A DNA stretch of 64,000 nt, from positions 62,001 through 126,000 of the forward strand of contig NZ_NPFY01000011.1 of NCBI RefSeq assembly GCF_002259415.1, in the 5' to 3' direction. Each line of letters begins with the position of its first letter. The stretch's first letter is position 1. The notes beneath the pieces were generated by a model, which was given only the letters and a program-made list of their open reading frames with translations, had not been told where the DNA came from and did no database searches. The stretch is from Rhodococcus sp. 14-2470-1b. GTDB lineage: Bacteria; Actinomycetota; Actinomycetes; Mycobacteriales; Mycobacteriaceae. Below are positions 7,172 through 10,223 of the stretch, piece by piece. Made by a program: the position numbers and the translations under genes.

Positions 7172-7207
7172 TACCCCCCGGGGTACTTGCATACCCCCCT
7201 AGGTATG
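7172..7207. promoter_or_regulatory. Two tandem CsoR/CstR-type operators upstream of the MmpL operon
   Basis: The first site is TACCCC-CC-GGGGTA at 7172-7185. The second is CATACC-N6-GGTATG at 7190-7207. Their centres lie 20 bp apart, about two helical turns. TACC...GGTA inverted repeats with a C/G-rich middle are the known operator form of the CsoR family, and the operon carries a CsoR-family gene at 9954. Binding is inferred. Confidence 0.7.
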
Positions 7208-7286
7208 TGTCACAGTGGGCATCGGCAGAGCATGTCGCCCCAACCCTCGCGGCTCACCCACCCGAGAGACAAGTGGGCCCATGTGT

Positions 7287-7302
7287 ATACCCCCACCCGT
7301 AT
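7287..7302. promoter_or_regulatory. Third CsoR-type half-palindrome next to the MmpL ribosome site
   Basis: ATAC-N8-GTAT with a C-rich centre, just before the AGGAGAA ribosome site of the MmpL gene. It resembles the two upstream operators but lacks the inner C/G pairing, so it is a weaker candidate. Confidence 0.45.
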
Positions 7303-7313
7303 CAGGAGAAATC

Positions 7314-9470
7314 ATGGCCGAGTTCGACACCGCGCCGGCGCCCAGCCGCGTCGCCCCTGATCGAGCCCGCACCCTCGGTGCGCTCGGTCGCCTCGGAAGC
7401 GTCATGGTTACACGCCGCCGATGGGTGTTCGGGATCTGGCTCATCGCGCTCGTCGCACTGGGTTCTGCAGCGCCGTCCGTCTTTTCGTCGCTCGCAGGTG
7501 CCGGTTGGCAGGCCAACGGGTCCGAGTCGGTTCAGGTCCGTGAACTCGCCCAGCACCATTTCGGCGGAAACTCCTCCGCCGCGGTCCAGGTCGTCGTTCA
7601 CTCCGACACCGCAGCCATCGATGACCCCGCGGTGCAGCAGACACTCACCGACGTTGCGGCTGTGTTCGACGGCGACACCCGCTTCGGCGACGTCATCGCC
7701 CCACAGCCGGGGATGACCATCAGCCCCGACGGGCACACCGCGATACTCATCGCCGGCGCCAACGCGAGCACCGACGATATGGTGAAAGCCGTCGACGACG
7801 TCAAAATGCAGCTCACTGCACTGTCCCGGGACGGTATCGAGGTCTACCCCACCGGATCCTCAGCGCTCTGGTCGGACTTCAACAAAGCCAACCACGATGC
7901 GATGATTCAAGCCGAATTGTTCTCGTGGCCGGTCACATTGGCGATTATGGTGCTCGCCTTCGGCTCGCTCGTCGCCGCAGGTTTGCCACTGCTGCTCACC
8001 GTCGCCGGTCTCGTCGCCTCCGCAGGCGGATTGGTGCTCCTCAACGAGGTGACGCCCATTTCGGTGTGGGCGATGAACTTCGCGATGATGTTCGCGCTCG
8101 CACTCGGTATCGACTACGCCCTGTTCATCGTCGCCCGTTTCCGCGACGCTCTACGTGCGGGCGACCCACGCGCCGCGGTCGCCGAGACCATGGACACCGC
8201 AGGCAAAGCAGTGGTCCTCTCCGGACTGACCGTGCTGGTCAGCCTCTCGGCAGTGTTGCTCGTTCCCGCGCCGGCCGTCCGCACCATGGCCGTGGGAATC
8301 ATGCTCGCCGTCGGCTTCGTCCTGGTCGCGACCATGACACTGCTGCCCGCCACACTGGGCGCGCTCGGCACCAAGGTCAACTCCGCCTCGTTGCCGTTTG
8401 CCAAGCGTCAACACCATCGCTCCCCGAAATTCGCTGCATGGGGCGAACTGCTCCACAAACACCCCTGGCCCTTCGCACTCGTCTCCGTCGGCATCCTTGT
8501 TGCCCTCGCACTGCCGGTGCTGGGACTGAAGGTCGCGATGCCGTCGATCGCTGTCGTCCCCGAAGACGCACCGGTCAGGCAAGGGTACGAACTGGTGCAA
8601 GCGCAGTTCGGCAACGGCGCACCCGGTGCACTGCAGATCGTCGTCCCGACCACCGACGCAGCCACGACGGCGGCCACAGCGAGCGAGGTGGACGGGATCT
8701 CGATGGTCACTCCACCTCAGCTCGCAGCGGACGACTCCGATTACGCACTACTCCAAGCTCTTCCCGACGTGGACCCCTCCGACGCTGCCATGGGCACGAT
8801 CCTCGGCGACCTCCGCGCACACCTGCCGGACTCCGCGCTCGTCGGCGGCGCACCGGCGGAGAACCTGGACCTACAACATGCCCTGAACACCTACCTCCCG
8901 CTCGTCATCGGGATCATCCTCGTGCTCGGCTTCCTCCTGCTGCTCGCTGCTTTGCAGGCACCACTGATCGCGATCCTCGGCACCGGAGTCAGCCTTCTCT
9001 CGACCGCTGCGGCATTCGGCGTCGCGAAGTCGATATTCCAGGACGGGCACGGCGCGTCGCTACTCGGTTTCACGCCGCAGGGCTTTCTCGACGGCTGGGG
9101 ACCTGTGTTCTTCTTCGCGATGATTTTCGCGATCGCCATGGACTACACCGTGTTCTTGCTCGCTACCGCCAAGGAGCATTACGAACGTTCCGGCGACCCG
9201 AAGAAGGCCCAGGTCGACGGTCTCGCTCACTCCGGACGTGTCATATTCGCCGCCGCCGCGGTCATGGTCGCAGTATTCTTCACCTTCGCGCTCTCCGATC
9301 CACTCCCACCGAAGGAGATGGGCATCATCCTCGGGGTCGCGGTTCTGCTGGACGCGTTCTTGATCAGGCTGATCCTGCTCCCGGTCCTGTTGCGGCTGAG
9401 CGGCCACGCCGCCTGGTGGTCACCCTCGTGGCTCCGCAGGGTCCTGCCGTCGATCCACTTCTCGCACTGA
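7314..9470 (+). CDS. MMPL/RND-family transporter
   Basis: 718 residues from ATG 7314 with CAGGAGAAATC upstream. The layout is that of MmpL proteins: one N-terminal helix, an extracytoplasmic domain, six membrane helices, then a second helix-domain-five-helix half. Both halves keep the Asp-Tyr proton-relay pair of the family: GIDYALFIVARFRD and AMDYTVFLLATAKEHYERSGD. Short MmpLs of this size lack the long C-terminal tail of lipid exporters. Substrate is unknown. It is the first gene of a unit with a DUF302 protein and a CsoR-family repressor, and the promoter carries operator-like repeats, so expression probably rises with metal or sulfur stress. Confidence 0.92.
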   Translation: MAEFDTAPAPSRVAPDRARTLGALGRLGSVMVTRRRWVFGIWLIALVALGSAAPSVFSSLAGAGWQANGSESVQVRELAQHHFGGNSSAAVQVVVHSDTAAIDDPAVQQTLTDVAAVFDGDTRFGDVIAPQPGMTISPDGHTAILIAGANASTDDMVKAVDDVKMQLTALSRDGIEVYPTGSSALWSDFNKANHDAMIQAELFSWPVTLAIMVLAFGSLVAAGLPLLLTVAGLVASAGGLVLLNEVTPISVWAMNFAMMFALALGIDYALFIVARFRDALRAGDPRAAVAETMDTAGKAVVLSGLTVLVSLSAVLLVPAPAVRTMAVGIMLAVGFVLVATMTLLPATLGALGTKVNSASLPFAKRQHHRSPKFAAWGELLHKHPWPFALVSVGILVALALPVLGLKVAMPSIAVVPEDAPVRQGYELVQAQFGNGAPGALQIVVPTTDAATTAATASEVDGISMVTPPQLAADDSDYALLQALPDVDPSDAAMGTILGDLRAHLPDSALVGGAPAENLDLQHALNTYLPLVIGIILVLGFLLLLAALQAPLIAILGTGVSLLSTAAAFGVAKSIFQDGHGASLLGFTPQGFLDGWGPVFFFAMIFAIAMDYTVFLLATAKEHYERSGDPKKAQVDGLAHSGRVIFAAAAVMVAVFFTFALSDPLPPKEMGIILGVAVLLDAFLIRLILLPVLLRLSGHAAWWSPSWLRRVLPSIHFSH

Positions 9471-9496
9471 ACACGTACTCGAAAGGAATCTCAGCC

Positions 9497-9910
9497 ATGA
9501 GCATCGCACTGTCCACCACGTTGGCCGACACCGACTTCGGCACCGTCGTCCAATCAGTCAAGGCAGCACTGTCCGACCAAGGATTCGGCGTACTGACCGA
9601 AATCGACATGCAAGCCACCTTGAAAGCCAAGCTCGGCGAAGACATGGAGCAGTACCTGATCCTCGGTGCGTGCAATCCGACACTCGCGCACCGCGCCGTC
9701 GGAGTCATGCCACAGATCGGTTTGCTCCTGCCGTGCAACGTGGTCGTCCGCGCCGACACCGCAACGCCAGGATCGGTGATCGTCGAGGCAATGAACCCGG
9801 ACATCATGGTTCAGGCCACCGGCGAACCCGGGCTCGCCGATGTCGCCGCCGAAGCCACCACCAAGTTGCAAGCAGCAATCGATGCACTGGGGGCATGCCC
9901 CCGGGGGTAA
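9497..9910 (+). CDS. DUF302 domain-containing protein
   Basis: 137 residues from ATG 9497 with GAAAGGA upstream, 26 bases after the MmpL stop. The sequence follows the DUF302 pattern: an N-terminal strand and helix ([31 protein letters not shown]), then [16 protein letters not shown] and a [13 protein letters not shown] core, then a C-terminal helix. The family has a small dimeric alpha/beta fold of unknown activity and often lies beside CsoR-family regulators. Two conserved-looking cysteines (GACNP and LPCNV) could take part in thiol or metal chemistry, but that is inference. Confidence 0.85.
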
Positions 9911-9953
9911 CCTGGGACGCACTTCGCTACACCGCACCACGAGGAGCCTCACC

Positions 9954-10223
9954 ATGATCGGCGACGAAGACAGCATCGCACTGGTACTGAACCGCCTGCG
10001 CCGCGCCCACGGACAACTCGCCGGCGTGATCGGCATGATCGAGAACGGGCGCGACTGCAAAGATGTCGTCACCCAACTTGCCGCCGTATCCCGCGCGCTC
10101 GACAAGGCAGGCTTCAAGATCGTCGCAACGGGTCTTCGCGAATGCATGACCGGTGAGACCGCCGACAACAGAGAGCCGATGACCGAAGCCGAACTGGAAA
10201 AACTCTTCCTCGCATTGGCCTAG
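9954..10223 (+). CDS. CsoR-family (DUF156) repressor with CstR-like persulfide-sensor residues
   Basis: 89 residues from ATG 9954 with GAGGAG upstream. It is an all-helical CsoR-family protein: [23 protein letters not shown], then [14 protein letters not shown] and a C-terminal helix. Copper-sensing CsoR uses Cys-His-Cys; here Cys35 and Cys64 are kept but the histidine position (60) is Gly. The stretch [10 protein letters not shown] is close to that of the persulfide sensor CstR, which also lacks the His and works through two cysteines. I therefore infer a reactive-sulfur sensor rather than a copper sensor. It probably represses its own operon through the inverted repeats at 7172-7207. Confidence 0.85.

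Follow-up and report, generated by a model that had tools for sequence, protein, structure and literature searches.

This locus raises the question of what a small CsoR-superfamily regulator senses when it lacks the histidine of copper sensors and shares an operon with an MmpL exporter. The operon occupies positions 7172-10223 of the window, by which we mean the whole 64-kb stretch of Rhodococcus sp. 14-2470-1b DNA analyzed here, and all three of its genes lie on the + strand. The mmpL gene (7314..9470, ATG at 7314) encodes an exporter of the MmpL/resistance-nodulation-division (RND) type (718 aa, PF03176) and is followed after 26 bp by the gene for a DUF302 protein (9497..9910; 137 aa, PF03625) and after another 43 bp by the gene for a regulator assigned to the CstR type (9954..10223; 89 aa, PF02583) with Cys35, Gly60, and Cys64. 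The original prediction had described an mmpL-DUF302 operon with a CsoR-family regulator, and gene order, strand, and domain matches agree with it. The details it named are likewise present: Cys35 and Cys64 with Gly (residue 60) at the copper-sensor His position, a ten-residue stretch of the regulator, and two cysteines in the DUF302 protein (Cys59 and Cys80). CstR-type circuits are known for oxidizing reactive sulfur. From the comparisons below, we read the window regulator as a persulfide-type (CstR-type) sensor in an autoregulated operon with a probability of roughly 0.78, a figure that covers the sensor and the operon and not the substrate of the exporter.

The genome contains three CsoR-family genes, one in the window and one each on contigs C35 and C48. 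The C48 CsoR has the copper-type His, an operator with a 7-base spacer (n7) stands before its gene, and a frame downstream contains the metal-binding motif GMTCQHCAAS, as read by eye. The window protein has the CsoR-fold domain (PF02583) at 82.2 bits, against a cut-off of 22.8. We aligned 50 regulators (the window and C35 proteins, 40 from a search of the order, and 8 from plasmids) with 25 copper-type proteins found with the C48 CsoR and with reference proteins. Column 60 is Gly in 50/50 regulators and His in 25/25 copper-type CsoRs, and column 34 is Asp or Glu in 50/50 of the former and Tyr in 25/25 of the latter. With Gly in the His column, the window regulator lacks the Cys-His-Cys copper ligand set. 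Both cysteines are found in all 75 aligned proteins, and the cysteines alone are therefore not decisive for the CstR class. The best Protein Data Bank (PDB) match of the window regulator was 7mq1 (1.2e-10), which its depositors labeled csoR and which we take to be the pneumococcal CstR. In the tree, the 50 regulators grouped with 7mq1 (97/88), and the 25 copper-type proteins grouped with three copper CsoRs from the PDB (99/94). The resemblance to CstR that had been claimed was thus borne out by alignment and tree, which did not place the regulator among the copper sensors. We also counted the spacing of TACCC...GGGTA sites at 40 regulator loci (8 kb each, or the whole locus if shorter) and at the 25 copper-type loci (L001/L095 and L096-L119). 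TACC and GGTA were separated by 6 bases (n6) in 74/76 sites at the regulator loci and by 7 bases in 24/24 sites at the copper-type loci. The first two operators of the window, O1 and O2, have the n6 spacing of sulfane-sulfur sensors and not the n7 spacing of the copper type. Because residues, tree, and operator spacing agree, the window regulator is read as a sulfur sensor.

Operators were sought in the window with the pattern TACCCCCNNGGGTA at ≤2 mismatches on both strands, with shuffled windows (n = 100) as the control. The search gave nine strand-wise matches, six of them at four places in the operon; the shuffled windows had a mean of 1.72 matches, and 0/100 reached nine. The predicted operators, all given on the + strand, are O1 (TACCCCCCGGGGTA, 7172..7185), a TACC-n6-GGTA site with no mismatch; O2 (TACCCCCCTAGGTA, 7192..7205), with one mismatch and starting 20 bp past the start of O1; and O4 (TGCCCCCGGGGGTA, 9896..9909), with one mismatch and overlapping the DUF302 stop codon. 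The asymmetric element O3 (7287..7302, +) ends 11 nt before the mmpL start codon and matches the pattern at 7288 with two mismatches. Two TACC...GGTA operators at 20-bp spacing and a weaker third one had been proposed, and they correspond to the matches at 7172, 7192, and 7288. O4 is a fourth site that the earlier account did not contain; its end lies 44 bp from the regulator ATG, and it may serve the autoregulation of the regulator. A by-eye promoter (-35 TTGCAT at 7187, -10 CACAGT at 7211) was a guess and was not used.

The 151 family genomes sampled contain 26 exact copies of the element O3, ATACCCCCACCCGTAT (loci L204-L229), spread over 24 of them, and the reversed control had no copies. 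All 26 are on the sense strand upstream of this mmpL, 26-184 nt before the first matched residue. Five copies were found in 397 sampled genomes of the order, and they are the same as five of the 26. The Rhodococcus genome itself has two copies and no further one at ≤2 mismatches. Among 98 mmpL loci (pooled sets that possibly share a few places), 24 have the element exactly and 6 with one mismatch, always on the sense strand and never on the other. Conservation in the flanks falls at once to ≤1.0 bit; the copies were found by exact match, so that invariance inside the element is by choice and the drop outside it is not. The element, confined to the upstream region of this mmpL in the genomes searched, is new here. 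It retains the spacing of CstR sites (TACC-n6-CGTA) and is therefore most simply read as a variant site for the repressor; many mmpL loci without it have a second ordinary operator in its place. A role as RNA was considered and rejected: eight folded leaders gave z-scores of -1.8 to +1.6 and no shared structure beyond 4-bp arms in some, and the only two Rfam matches of 7100-7420 scored far under the gathering threshold. With no common RNA fold or Rfam match above that threshold, we prefer to regard ATACCCCCACCCGTAT as a putative protein-binding DNA site, probably a variant site for the repressor.

A paralogue of the window operon is found in the same genome, on contig C35. Its order is mmpL, DUF2892, DUF302, tauE, regulator, and a gene for a protein of the metallo-β-lactamase (MBL)-rhodanese type, and its regulator is identical to that of the window at 87/89 residues (98%). 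Four operator-type sites stand in the same order as in the window, the first two again 20 bp apart; the inner bases differ, as does the distance to the third site. With blastn, the window and C35 promoters shared a block at 7171-7216 comprising both operators and the sequence downstream (46 bp, 96% identical) and a block at 7284-7310 that spans the ribosome-binding region together with the third site (27 bp, 93% identical). The coding DNA of the two operons is 82-90% alike. The C35 MBL-rhodanese protein matched PDB entries 3tp9 (6.9e-67) and 3r2u (3.3e-49), the latter presumably the CstB of Staphylococcus aureus. In all, MMPL genes number ten in this genome, apart from one weak match, and two of them stand beside a CstR-type regulator. 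The window operon itself has no dioxygenase, rhodanese, or TauE gene; such partners are in the C35 paralogue. The original prediction had contrasted this unit with CstR regulons of sulfide oxidation. That contrast does not hold, as the C35 paralogue combines MmpL, DUF302 protein, and regulator with a CstB-like protein and TauE, and plasmids pBD2 and pRHL3 also have these three among sulfur-type genes. On comparative grounds, the window unit is, as we read it, a cut-down version of a cst-like operon that is widespread in actinobacteria, and not something apart from sulfur oxidation.

Elsewhere in the genome, a wider regulon was sought and rejected: at one mismatch, other paired sites were found only on contig C27, with no recognizable gene downstream. 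These sites (locus L093, 9749-9782) repeat the operator pair for a third time, 20-bp spacing included, and look like a leftover mmpL promoter. Integrase-like genes lie a few kb away. At 1.5 kb from the leftover operators, a gene at L093 7242-8270 encodes a lipoprotein-like protein with two DUF302 domains that lack the two cysteines (by eye); a sigma-factor-like gene and an anti-sigma-like frame come next. Contig C13, which bears the genome's only gene resembling that for sulfide:quinone oxidoreductase (SQR; 38% identity), had no operator site at one mismatch.

The regulator is common in the order: 259 of 298 sampled genomes had a match at E ≤ 1e-6, a count that includes copper-type relatives. 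Neighborhoods were examined within 8 kb at 42 loci, namely, the best 40 places outside this genome, the window, and C35. DUF302 genes occurred at 30 of them (one match being weak and partial), MBL-rhodanese genes at 14 (at one, the rhodanese part only), and mmpL and tauE at 12 each. A site with ≤2 mismatches stood 80 to 20 bp before the regulator gene at 120/125 loci, pooled from two sets that possibly share a few places, compared with 1/125 in an intragenic control stretch. Near 50 regulator loci, sites numbered 136 in 313 kb, compared with 23 in 459 kb of outer flanks. At loci L061, L063, L067, L069, and L073, where the four partner genes are absent within 8 kb, a site with one or two mismatches lies at about -43 of the regulator gene itself.

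The association was also evident when the search started from the exporter. Scanning named genomes with an MmpL alignment, we took the best 80 of 288 related loci and examined each between 5 kb upstream and 6.5 kb downstream of mmpL; the regulator was present in 75, DUF302 in 71, and DUF2892 in 44. The 420 bp before mmpL contained at least one site with ≤2 mismatches in 74/80 loci, one with ≤1 mismatch in 69/80, and at least two sites in 64/80, and some relatives also have paired operators with 20-bp spacing. An operator precedes mmpL at each of the five loci without a regulator (four from Rhodococcus and one from an Aeromicrobium bin). Among plasmids, 44 records, 41 of which are from Rhodococcus, contained this MmpL at E ≤ 1e-100. 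The regulator was within about 3.2 kb in 38 of the 40 plasmid records listed and was seen in the annotation of one more, from R. antarcticus. Plasmid pBD2 has the full operon, and the operon stretch of pRHL3 of R. jostii RHA1 also has TusA, DsrE-like, and rhodanese-like proteins and three MBL genes. N. farcinica pNF2 is a further named example, and the M. chubuense plasmid locus has two MBL genes and an oxidoreductase read as SQR. These counts suggest that MmpL is a regular member of CstR-type circuits, a proposal that is new here; no paper placing an MmpL in a CstR regulon was found among the accessible papers that the literature searches listed.

Several observations weigh against the reading of a persulfide sensor with its own operon. 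Genome-wide at one mismatch, the operator pattern occurred 13 times and the reversed pattern 14 times; because there is no excess, the case for the operators rests on their place and conservation. A scan of 7100-7330 with sigma-70 consensus hexamers found no promoter. None of the four partner genes lies within 8 kb at 7/42 regulator loci, and the MBL-rhodanese type and tauE are found at only 15/80 and 14/80 mmpL loci, respectively. No site at ≤2 mismatches precedes mmpL at 6/80 loci (one contig starts at the match), five further loci of the 80 have the asymmetric site only, and in pDK1 (L080), the operon of which is otherwise complete, the 680 bp before mmpL contain no site. The 50 regulators were picked by similarity to the window protein, so that their uniformity is partly built in, and the copper-type label of the 25 proteins comes from the match of the C48 protein to S. 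lividans CsoR (4adz, 1.3e-30), which is a likeness only. The tree was built from 94 columns without PDB entry 6ahx (function not named); long branches meet in it, and its bootstrap values had yet to stabilize. In the accessible text of PMC10318464, Thermus thermophilus TTHA1953, which its authors place nearest CstR, bound DNA less well as a disulfide and was not released by NaHS.

Two characterized circuits show how a sensor of this kind could work. Streptomyces coelicolor ScCsoR, as described in the accessible part of PMC7533328, binds ATACC-n6-GGTAT and controls pdo-tauE, rhod, and itself, and its release by polysulfide (HSnH) requires both Cys37 and Cys66. The window resembles that circuit in its two-cysteine CsoR-fold repressor and in the n6 operator type; there, too, the pdo promoter has two sites and the repressor's own promoter has one, and the targets are sulfane-sulfur genes. 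Unlike the window unit, the ScCsoR circuit as described there has no MmpL. The regulator of an apparently similar cluster on a Streptomyces goshikiensis plasmid is 74% identical to that of the window over 74 aa. In the tree, the likeness to S. aureus CstR runs via the presumed pneumococcal protein 7mq1 and not through direct comparison. In S. aureus, according to the accessible text of PMC5480029, CstR controls tauE, cstA, cstB, and sqr, and its cysteines (31 and 60) are 29 residues apart, as are those of the window regulator. The CstB-like and TauE partners of the C35 paralogue also recall that operon; in contrast to the window unit, the cst genes listed there include neither MmpL nor DUF302. 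An Arthrobacter plasmid has a SUL module that combines a CsoR-family regulator, a sulfur dioxygenase, two rhodaneses, TauE, and a DUF302 protein (PMC6305408, in the part available), so that a DUF302 protein together with a CsoR-family regulator, as in the window, was already known. According to the same text, the further transporter of the SUL module is a major facilitator, and the MMPL gene is in another module with TetR regulators.

By analogy with ScCsoR and S. aureus CstR, from which the cysteine chemistry and release by sulfane sulfur are carried over, the repressor, with its CsoR fold, two thiols, and no copper-binding His, would sit on O1 (7172), O2 (7192), and O4 (9896) and probably also on the asymmetric O3 (7287). 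When sulfane sulfur (organic persulfides or polysulfide) builds up, Cys35 would take up sulfur as a persulfide and become joined to Cys64 in a second protomer. With the repressor off the DNA, all three genes of the operon, that of the repressor included, would be transcribed, and autoregulation would let the repressor reset its own circuit. The C35 operon would oxidize persulfide (MBL-rhodanese protein) and export sulfite (TauE), and the window operon would add a second MmpL and DUF302 protein. Because their operators are alike and their repressors 98% identical, the two operons should be induced together.

The relatives of the exporter bear on what it would carry. The window MmpL matched PF03176 at 224 bits and contains no cysteine. 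Its Asp-Tyr pairs D267-Y268 and D610-Y611, which in MmpL3 presumably form the proton relay, are invariant in eight aligned sequences. The nearest solved relatives are MmpL3 (220 bits), MmpL5 (114), and MmpL4 (92). Like the trehalose monomycolate exporter MmpL3, it belongs to the MMPL family; unlike MmpL3, which we take to have a C-terminal domain, it is shorter (718 aa), stands behind CstR-type operators, and has a DUF302 partner. That partner has two cysteines and no evident signal peptide; Cys59 and Cys80 are kept in 106/107 homologues at such loci, and the nearest solved structure is TT1751 (1j3m, "conserved hypothetical protein"). We propose only tentatively, and at well below even odds, that the MmpL expels a hydrophobic or thiol-bound sulfane-sulfur product by means of the proton gradient, with the DUF302 protein as a cytosolic sulfur carrier. 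It is unlikely, though worth stating, that proton-driven export of a sulfane-sulfur product (polysulfide, mycothiol persulfide, or lipid persulfide) is the dedicated task of this MmpL subfamily, with DUF302 feeding it as a cysteine sulfur carrier and with double control by CstR and the mmpL-specific 16-mer.

The strongest alternative accepts the same sensor and has the MmpL, like MmpL3, supplying envelope lipid when sulfur stress damages or remodels the mycolate membrane, with no sulfur carried; it falls somewhat short of an even chance. The order of the solved relatives, with MmpL3 before the siderophore exporters MmpL5 and MmpL4, fits a lipid carrier, as do the absence of cysteine from the MmpL and the hosts, most of the 80 mmpL loci being in genera that we take to be mycolate-bearing. 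However, 4/80 hosts are presumably mycolate free (Kitasatospora arboriphila, the Aeromicrobium bin, and two Prauserella), unless these are transfers, and the pairing with a two-cysteine protein without an evident signal peptide would be left unexplained. As roles of the MmpL, sulfane-sulfur export and lipid supply to the envelope are about equally likely. The original prediction of an undescribed persulfide-responsive export or detoxification unit stands in part: the sensor type agrees with residues, tree, spacing, and neighborhood, the separation from sulfur oxidation was contradicted by the C35 paralogue and the plasmids, and persulfide as the effector and export as the function are plausible suggestions.

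A different objection concerns the signal, which might be another thiol-reactive species (HNO, hypochlorite, electrophiles, or arsenite), in which case the sulfur genes would make up just a part of the regulon. Reaction with HNO is known for S. aureus CstR (PMC5480029, accessible text), and there are arsenic genes among the neighbors in the window, but the partners in the fuller operons are annotated as MBL-fold, TauE, and rhodanese-like proteins and read as sulfur enzymes, and we consider such a signal improbable. The arsenic/metal genes form a group directly behind the operon (10273-15822), with an ArsR-type regulator, an ACR3 arsenite exporter, an ArsC-like frame (by eye), a flavin oxidoreductase, a second ArsR-type regulator on the opposite strand, and a P-type-ATPase-like gene (by eye). 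On the other side, 5604-7124 contains a serine/threonine-kinase-like gene (by eye) with a long Asn-Gly-Ser repeat as its C terminus and a short gttgcc repeat (about 6756-6786) in a membrane segment.

The metal genes also bear on the remaining alternative, for which the TbD1 locus matters, as we take it to hold an mmpL gene. An unusual Cu(I)-sensing CsoR, with MmpL and DUF302 serving metal stress in a metal island of arsenic and P-type ATPase genes, could draw on the shared protein family, on RicR as the best NCBIfam match (40.9 bits, far under the cut-off of 175), on the adjoining ArsR-type, ACR3, and P-type-ATPase-like genes, and on the lowering of CsoR- and RicR-regulated copper genes by deletion of the TbD1 locus in M. 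bovis (PMC9048740, in the part available), but none of the 50 regulators has His60 or Tyr34, the spacing is n6 and not n7, the tree places the regulator elsewhere, and C48 encodes another CsoR of this genome, which bears the His and has an n7 site before its gene, and we therefore reject the copper reading of the regulator on residues, tree, and operator spacing as very improbable.

Under the preferred reading of a persulfide-type sensor, the spacing of the operators, n6 for sulfur and n7 for copper, may give a simple naming rule for actinobacterial CsoR proteins, which the plasmid records examined name only "metal-sensitive transcriptional regulator." If MmpL regularly belongs to CstR-type circuits in Rhodococcus, Nocardia, Williamsia, and Gordonia, this would provide a testable condition and phenotype for an orphan class of MmpL proteins, and the same holds for the orphan DUF302 family, which has solved structures and no assigned function. 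The mmpL-bearing cst-like operons would tie this class of exporters to sulfur stress, and a dedicated sulfane-sulfur MmpL, if it exists, would mean that reactive sulfur is exported as well as oxidized.

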